Part shown: positions 36,371-38,640 of the stretch, one piece after another
Position numbering within the stretch: position 1 is the first letter of the stretch
Layout: each line of letters begins with the position of its first letter
Assembly: GCA_001896725.1 (NCBI GenBank)
Contig: MPPA01000010.1
Location: 310,001 to 374,000 of the forward strand
DNA: 64,000 bases
Direction: 5' to 3'
Source: Methanococcoides sp. EBM-47
GTDB lineage: Archaea; Halobacteriota; Methanosarcinia; Methanosarcinales; Methanosarcinaceae
Position numbers and translations under genes: made by a program
The notes under the pieces: model-generated
What the model saw: the letters and a program-made list of their open reading frames with translations, nothing else
Told to the model about the DNA's origin: nothing
The model's database searches: none

Positions 36371-36558
36371 GGGGTTGTGGCCTAGCCCGGCATGGCGATG
36401 GGCTCCAGCGGATAGATGATGAACAACGGGTCTACTGAGATATGTCCGACGGGACCTATCAGTGAGGAACCGTTGGAGCACTGATATGTGTTCGGGATGC
36501 TGAGAAGCATTTGTTCGGAGAGACCCGTCGATCGTGAGTTCAAATCTCACCAACCCCA
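36371..36558 (+). tRNA. tRNA-Trp(CCA) with a 114-base intron after position 37
   Basis: Exon 1 is 36371-36408 and exon 2 is 36523-36558, giving a 74-base tRNA. Acceptor GGGGTTG pairs with CAACCCC; the D arm is GCC...GGC; the anticodon stem ATGGG pairs with CCCGT; the loop is CT-CCA-GA; the T arm is GTGAG-TTCAAAT-CTCAC; the discriminator is A, with CCA not encoded. The splice sites form a textbook bulge-helix-bulge: CTCC (36403-36406) pairs with GGAG (36517-36520), flanked by 3-base bulges AG^C and AG^A. A T-run at 36561-36566 ends the gene. Confidence 0.97.
36409..36522 (+). ncRNA. Box C/D guide RNA within the tRNA-Trp intron
   Basis: Box C ATGATGA (36416-36422), D' CTGA (36435-36438), C' GTGAGGA (36462-36468) and D CTGA (36481-36484) are visible. 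The guide before D' (ACGGGTCT) pairs with exon-joined AGACCCGT, and the fifth base from D' falls on position 39. The guide before D (TGGAGC) pairs with GCTCCA, and the fifth base falls on C34. This matches the known intron of Haloferax pre-tRNA-Trp, which directs 2'-O-methylation at positions 34 and 39. Confidence 0.92.
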
Positions 36559-36883: not shown

Positions 36884-37891
36884 ATGGTAGGATCTGGTCT
36901 TGACAAGGTGTTAGTAGTTGATGATGAGCCGGCTATTGTAGATCTCATGGAACTTTATCTCAAGGCAGATTATGAAATGATCAGGGCATATAATGGAAAG
37001 GAAGCGCTTGAGAAAGCCAGATCTGAAAAGCCTTCAGTGATTATACTTGATGTGATGATGCCTGATATGAATGGATATGAGGTCTGCAAGGTTTTGAAAA
37101 CATCAGTAGAGACCCAATTCATCCCTATAATAATGGTAACAGCGCTTTCAGGCAAGGATGAAAAGATCAAAGGCTTGGAGTCAGGTGCAGATGAATTCTT
37201 AAGTAAGCCTGTAAACAGGCTCGAACTTGTGACCCGTGTAAAATCCCTTACACGAATAAAACATCTTCAGGACCGGATACTTGCTGAACGCAATTACGCA
37301 TATCAATGTATCGATGTGGCTGGGGTGTTAATGCTTGTAGTGGATCGCGAGCAAAAGATAAATCTGATCAATCGCACAGGAAATGAAGTGCTTGGTTATG
37401 ATGAGTTCGAGCTTATCGGCCAGAATATGTTCAATGTGCTGGTCCCACAGGAAGAAAGGACAAAGGAAATAGAAAAATTTAACGATATCATAGAAAAAAA
37501 GGTAGATCCTCCTCACTTATATGAAAGAAAGATCCTTAAAAAGGATGGAGGAACAATAATTGTTAGCTGGAGCGAGTCTCCTATCTATGATAATGATGGA
37601 GATATAGAGGCATTGATATGCTCTGGAAAGGACATCACTGAGCTCAGGATGAAAGATGATCTTTTGCTGAATTTGAACGAAATGAAAGAAAGGTTTACAG
37701 ACATGCTTGACCAGGGTCTGATGGGTCCAGTTACTGAGATACAGGATCATGTCCGAGTGCTACTTGAAAAAGAAACTGAAGCAGAGAACATAGTATACAT
37801 TGAGAAAATAATGCAAAATATATCTCATATGACGGAAACCCTGAAGAACACCTCAGCTTATCTGGACCAACATCTAGAAGATAAAATATGA
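36884..37891 (+). CDS. Response regulator with PAS domain and degenerate histidine-kinase dimerisation domain
   Basis: A 335-residue cytoplasmic signalling protein. The receiver domain (about 7-120) has the acidic pair Asp13-Asp14, phospho-acceptor Asp56 (ILDVMMPD), Thr86 and Lys108. A PAS domain covers about 135-255 (MLVVDREQKINLINRTGNEVLGY). The last 75 residues align with a HisKA helix pair: MKERFTDMLDQGLMGPV matches the H-box pattern MKxEFxxxxSHELRxPL, but the phospho-accepting His is Gln277 and the following Glu is Gly278. No HATPase domain follows. It therefore cannot be a kinase; it may dimerise with or sequester a true kinase. It is monocistronic. Confidence 0.88.
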   Translation: MVGSGLDKVLVVDDEPAIVDLMELYLKADYEMIRAYNGKEALEKARSEKPSVIILDVMMPDMNGYEVCKVLKTSVETQFIPIIMVTALSGKDEKIKGLESGADEFLSKPVNRLELVTRVKSLTRIKHLQDRILAERNYAYQCIDVAGVLMLVVDREQKINLINRTGNEVLGYDEFELIGQNMFNVLVPQEERTKEIEKFNDIIEKKVDPPHLYERKILKKDGGTIIVSWSESPIYDNDGDIEALICSGKDITELRMKDDLLLNLNEMKERFTDMLDQGLMGPVTEIQDHVRVLLEKETEAENIVYIEKIMQNISHMTETLKNTSAYLDQHLEDKI

Positions 37892-37935
37892 TATATGGAT
37901 TGGAATAAAGGTTAAAAAGGATCTTTTGGCAAAAA

Positions 37936-37948
37936 CATTTAAATCATA
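37936..37948 (+). promoter_or_regulatory. TATA-like promoter of the L15e/exosome superoperon
   Basis: CATTTAAATCATA lies about 25 bases before 37967, exactly where the structured leader begins, so the transcript is likely to start at or next to the leader's first stem. Start position is inferred from the usual archaeal spacing. Confidence 0.45.
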
Positions 37949-37965
37949 TCATGTGTGTAGTAAGT

Positions 37966-38040
37966 TCGTTTCATTCGGGAGCGATCCCGTAGGGATGTGG
38001 TCCATAATGGGCTGAACCGTGAAACTGAAAATGAAACAAG
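37966..38040 (+). promoter_or_regulatory. Structured 5' leader of the L15e mRNA (candidate RNA regulator)
   Basis: GTTTCATT (37968-37975) pairs perfectly with AATGAAAC (38030-38037), closing a domain of about 70 bases. Inside are CGGGA-GCGA-TCCCG (37976-37989), a stem capped by a GNRA tetraloop and stacked on the closing stem, and a second region, GGTCC...GGGCTGAACC, with weaker pairing. The closing stem ends directly at the AAGGTGA ribosome-binding site of L15e. No tRNA, rRNA or riboswitch class I know fits. It may be an autogenous ribosomal-protein site, a riboswitch or a small stable RNA. Confidence 0.55.
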
Positions 38041-38049
38041 GTGAACATA

Positions 38050-38640
38050 TTGTCAAAATCTTTTTATGGATATATAAGAGATGCTTGGAAGAACCCTGAT
38101 GAGACCTATGTCAAAGATCTTAGATGGGAGAGGCTTCAGGAATGGAGAGTACAGGGTTCCATTGTAAAGATCAGAAGGCCCACCCGTATTGACCGTGCAA
38201 GGTCCCTTGGGTACAAGGCAAAACAGGGAATAATTGTGGTACGTGCAAAAGTAAGAAGAGGAGGCCGCAGAAACCAGAGATATGTCCGTGGGAGACGTAC
38301 CCACAATATGGGTAAGAACAAGATCACTGGAGGTAAAAGTATCCAGAGGATCGCTGAAGAACGAGCATCCAGAAAATATCCAAATATGGAGGTACTTAAC
38401 TCCTACTGGGTAGGCGAGGATGGAAAGGTCAAGTGGTACGAAGTGATCCTTGTGGATCCCAGTCACCCTGTGATACAGAGCGACAACAATCTTAATTGGA
38501 TCTGTAACAGCAGCCAGAAGAGGCGTGTCTTCCGTGGAAAGACAAGCGCTGGAGTAAAAGGCAGAGGTATGGGTAAGCGTGGTACTGGAACCGAGAAGAA
38601 CCGGCCAAGTATCAGGTCTAATATGAACAGGGGTAAGTGA
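38050..38640 (+). CDS. rpl15e: 50S ribosomal protein L15e
   Basis: A 196-residue archaeal/eukaryotic large-subunit protein, rich in Arg and Lys, with typical [13 protein letters not shown] near the N-terminus and [18 protein letters not shown] in the centre. I chose the TTG at 38050 since it follows AAGGTGA by a normal spacing and gives MSKSFYGY; a GTG at 38041 is in frame but lies within the ribosome-binding site. First gene of the exosome superoperon. The stop overlaps the GTG start of the next gene. Confidence 0.93.

Follow-up and report, generated by a model that had tools for sequence, protein, structure and literature searches.

The region directly before rpl15e in Methanococcoides sp. 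EBM-47 carries an eL15-Euryarchaeota ribosomal-protein leader, a member of the already known Rfam family RF03144, and the strand at the 5' end of this leader can pair with two different partners downstream of the conserved core. The element examined comprises positions 37966-38049 of the window, by which we mean the whole stretch of 64,000 nt that was analyzed (assembly GCA_001896725.1, contig MPPA01000010.1, 310,001-374,000, forward strand). It agrees with RF03144 in core sequence and structure (P1, P2, GAUGU/GAA loop, and P3), downstream gene, and lineage. In contrast, the Rfam model ends where the core ends and shows the tail as unpaired, and it contains neither the outer helix nor the competing proximal helix (Table 1). 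These two helices and their distribution are additions to the 48-nt model and to the accessible text of PMC7247131; the outer helix may already appear in the figures or supplements of that paper. From the comparison of sequences we consider it quite probable that excess eL15, bound by the core, lowers rpl15e translation and that the outer helix covers the ribosome-binding site in the bound state; the eL15 level may in addition shift the balance between the two pairings. An earlier sequence-only reading of this DNA had missed both the leader family and the competing GUGAAAC partner.

Table 1. Features of the rpl15e leader region (window coordinates)
Feature	Position	Strand	Basis or remark
TATA-like element TTTAAATC	37938-37945	+	Sequence
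Outer-helix 5' strand GUUUCAUU	37968-37975	+	First 7 bases pair with 38019-38025 or 38031-38037
RF03144 eL15-Euryarchaeota leader core	37976-38023	+	cmscan, 46.9 bits, E = 1e-5
Hairpin P1, CGGGA-GCGA-UCCCG	37976-37989	+	Rfam model; GNRA loop unconserved in relatives
P2 5' side GG, pairs with CC 38017-38018	37992-37993	+	Rfam model, alignment
Internal-loop strand GAUGU, facing GAA 38014-38016	37994-37998	+	Conserved in Methanosarcinaceae alignment and Rfam model
Hairpin P3, GGUCCA-UAA-UGGGCU	37999-38013	+	Strongest covariation
Proximal partner GUGAAAC of 5' strand	38019-38025	+	Directly after core; helix 98.8% paired
Distal partner AAUGAAAC of 5' strand	38030-38037	+	Closing stem of the sequence-only reading; helix 91.8% paired
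Shine-Dalgarno AAGGTGA	38038-38044	+	GGTG invariant in Methanosarcinaceae alignment
eL15 (rpl15e), TTG start	38050-38640	+	PF00827, E = 1.4e-83; heads exosome-proteasome-RNase P gene run

The match to RF03144 spans the full model (positions 1-48; gathering cut-off 33.7 bits). This leader family was predicted by Eckert and Weinberg (2020; PMC7247131), whose text, in the part available, names eL15 as the likely ligand; in Rfam 15 its structure was revised and three covarying pairs were gained (PMC11701678). The leader is present in 96 of 101 Methanosarcinaceae genomes, in 132/200 genomes of the class and in 163/296 of the phylum, mostly as one copy per genome. No RF03144 match was obtained in the twelve listed class-level genomes of one family (f6), each of which is at least 96% complete, and the leader is therefore absent or diverged in this family.

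An eL15 gene follows on the same strand in 171 of the 172 extracted loci, and the single locus without it (L111) scores below the cut-off. This constant neighborhood supports a cis-acting leader and disfavors the independent small RNA which the sequence-only reading had left open as an alternative. The compact fold and the promoter-like TATA sequence would fit such an RNA placed by chance before rpl15e, but in all lineages the core is also close to the start codon, and no terminator-like site was detected in 37880-38140, so that we give this explanation hardly any credence. The main proposal of that reading, translational control most likely by eL15, matches both RF03144 and the suggestion made in the accessible text of Eckert and Weinberg (2020; PMC7247131). 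Binding of some other ligand, for example a different ribosomal protein or the exosome proteins of the downstream genes, appears improbable: the leader does stand at the head of a long gene series here that includes RNase P, proteasome, and exosome, but eL15 is the constant gene across the extracted loci, and rpl15e is the sole regulated ribosomal gene listed for the motif in the part of PMC7247131 that was available. The literature searched contained no experiment on eL15 binding or repression via the leader.

The leader lies in the 5' UTR of rpl15e, a PF00827 gene starting at 38050. According to homology, its start codon is the TTG at this position and not the in-frame GTG at 38041. It is followed by genes for an RNA_binding protein (PF01877), RNase P p30, Rpp14/Pop5, proteasome alpha, SBDS, Rrp4, and an exosome subunit of the RNase PH type. 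The sequence-only reading had predicted that the transcript starts with the first base of the closing stem. This fits the spacing of a TTTAAA-type TATA-like box: where a box was found (78 leaders), it precedes GUUUC by 26-29 nt in 72, which is consistent with a start at or near 37968. For the close relative Methanolobus psychrophilus, the main text of the transcription-start paper gives no start site for rpl15e; the part of that paper available reports internal starts within the exosome operon.

We judged the structure to be real because of the Rfam match, the covariation in the inner helix, and the retention of the outer strands in 14/14 Methanosarcinaceae genera. Thermodynamic folding was rejected as proof: the leader folds with -22.4 kcal/mol (z = -1.22), and 18 of 200 shuffled sequences were equally stable. 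In the predicted fold of the Methanococcoides leader alone, the Shine-Dalgarno sequence is unpaired. Covariation was strongest in P3, the arms of which (37999-38004 with 38008-38013) correspond to the second pairing region of the sequence-only reading. In an alignment of 74 Methanosarcinaceae leaders, four of the five counted P3 pairs show both-sided changes, and the whole structure contains 78 both-sided cells compared to a shuffled mean of 15; sliding the helix partners against each other destroys pairing. Hence the compensating base changes in related genomes on which that reading had made its structure depend do exist, and it is not refuted. P1 is nearly invariant within Methanosarcinaceae and has compatible variants in haloarchaea (CCCG/CGGG, CCUG/CAGG). 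The GNRA-capped hairpin that had been described at 37976-37989 is present in the Methanococcoides sequence. Its loop is species-specific, with UACG, UAAG, UUAG, and others in most relatives, and the minimum-energy fold has an alternative hairpin in its place, the GNRA version costing 1.2-2 kcal/mol when forced. Since the P1 loop is not conserved, we regard the tetraloop as incidental and rejected it as a functional feature.

The closing stem of 8 bp (37968-37975 with 38030-38037) is exact, and the Shine-Dalgarno sequence directly follows its last base, both as previously read. This outer helix lies outside the 48-nt Rfam model. Among the 98 leaders with GUUUC, a distal 7-mer complement was found in 84, and the distal helix occurs in all 14 sampled Methanosarcinaceae genera, while the surrounding linker varies. 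The full 7-mer complement near the Shine-Dalgarno sequence is found in all sampled leaders of 13 of these genera and in 4/5 leaders of the remaining one; in genera such as g11, the distal strand and the Shine-Dalgarno sequence share nucleotides (GGUGAAAC). The 5' strand, GUUUCAU, hardly varies among Methanosarcinaceae, and most outer pairs therefore provide no covariation test. Those changes that preserve pairing mostly involve G-U, and few are compensatory, with one both-sided change within Methanosarcinaceae (GUUUCGU with ACGAAGC in L091). For the median leader, an equally good match arises in a shuffled 3' flank with a chance of about 0.08. Because significance in a single genome is thus weak, the case for the outer helix rests on its conservation across genera.

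The 5' strand has a second, proximal complement. All seven pairs can be formed with this copy in 89/98 of the GUUUC leaders, and proximal and distal pairing are mutually exclusive. Of the 14 Methanosarcinaceae genera, 13 retain the proximal as well as the distal partner; genus g9 has the distal one only, and a two-state switch would therefore not be universal. In a leader from another family of the phylum (L149), the 5' strand reads GUUUCGU and both partners read ACGAAAC, so the partners have changed in step. The two states differ by a median predicted energy of 0.8 kcal/mol. We rejected this balance as evidence for a switch, since any duplicated strand would give it and it is therefore non-specific. 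Tentatively, and with somewhat less than even confidence, we propose a two-state RNA switch in which GUUUCAU would pick either GUGAAAC, leaving the ribosome site free, or AUGAAAC at the Shine-Dalgarno sequence, blocking it; haloarchaea would have evolved the mirrored arrangement, in which the 5' copy is duplicated and the 3' copy is single. If true, this would represent a protein-controlled translational switch in archaea that goes beyond the published Rfam model. In leaders of another family of the same order (f2; loci L031-L036, L040, L092, and L097), inspection by eye showed that a possible pairing of the 5' strand GCCA-GUUUC with GAAAC-AUGGC spans the start codon itself and that CCAG lengthens the proximal helix with CUGG.

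In haloarchaeal leaders whose 3' flank contains GCCCG, RCGGGC is placed in the loop of a hairpin of the CGCUGG/CCAGCG type, and GCCCGY is located just before the Shine-Dalgarno sequence. The variable positions of these two motifs covary: A occurs with a final U in 9 cases and G with a final C in 12. The exceptions are one leader combining G with U and one combining GUGGGC with GCCCGC; no A-C mismatch was observed. Therefore, a helix between the 5' part and the ribosome-binding site recurs with a different sequence across lineages. A second GCGGGC-like copy adjoins the core in haloarchaea and overlaps the 5' hairpin. The RCGGGC loop and GCCCGY tail of L119, L122, L125, L126, and the haloarchaeal loci among L145-L182 constitute a candidate loop-to-tail pseudoknot. 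In relatives with short 3' flanks (e.g., L154, L155, and L158), the core runs directly into the Shine-Dalgarno sequence, and no outer helix was found in these leaders.

These observations suggest the following mechanism. Transcription would begin at or near GUUUCAUU (37968), and the core, consisting of P1, P2, the asymmetric GAUGU/GAA loop, and P3, may serve as the receptor for eL15. Excess eL15 on the core would then reduce translation of rpl15e and perhaps also of later genes. In Methanosarcinaceae, the 5' end of the leader is predicted to pair right before the Shine-Dalgarno sequence, in some genera inside it, and a bound leader would for this reason cover the ribosome-binding site. The alternative pairing of the 5' strand with GUGAAAC would free the Shine-Dalgarno sequence, and the eL15 level presumably tips the leader towards one or the other pairing.

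A simpler explanation would be that the core acts alone: bound eL15 sterically blocks the ribosome, the outer helix merely stabilizes the fold, and the conservation of the 5' strand and linker has a different cause, such as promoter function or initiation context. The leaders with short 3' flanks, where the core leads straight into the Shine-Dalgarno sequence, are in agreement with this explanation, as is the position of the 5' strand at the predicted transcription start with a fixed distance to the TATA box. Against it stand the distal AUGAAAC that is kept in 14/14 genera despite a variable linker, the both-sided changes in L091 and L149, and the haloarchaeal leaders, in which another helix covaries at this position; we regard it as rather unlikely.

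Occlusion by the outer helix would explain in concrete terms how binding of eL15 could block the ribosome site, and the contributions of the two partners could be separated by simple compensatory mutations. The presumed logic is the same as in bacterial ribosomal-protein leaders which mask the ribosome-binding site, where excess protein binds the leader of its own mRNA and translation is blocked. RNA, protein, and domain of life are different, however, and protein binding is presumed in the case described here. Since the leader heads a run that includes exosome, proteasome, and RNase P subunits, such control could extend past one ribosomal protein. Only a small number of cis-regulatory RNAs have been described in archaea.

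We also compared the leader to 23S rRNA. No 23S rRNA match was obtained in the whole Methanococcoides assembly despite a listed completeness of 99.97%, and this draft probably lacks the rRNA operon. A 9-mer scan allowing one mismatch against the 23S rRNA of four relatives gave a match in three of them (GAGAUGUGG, GGAAUUUGG, or GCAAUGUGG), which is about chance level, and some matches were on the antisense strand or within tRNA-like sequence. Chance-level matches of this kind do not establish that the leader mimics rRNA. In the accessible part of their paper, Eckert and Weinberg (2020; PMC7247131) likewise call the resemblance of the leader to the eL15 site on rRNA unclear.

Elsewhere in the window, Rfam identified a tRNA at 36371-36558 (plus strand) that is split by a long intron holding an sR3 C/D-box RNA (36412-36486) and was missed by ARAGORN. 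This arrangement of intron and C/D-box RNA is known from archaeal tRNA-Trp.
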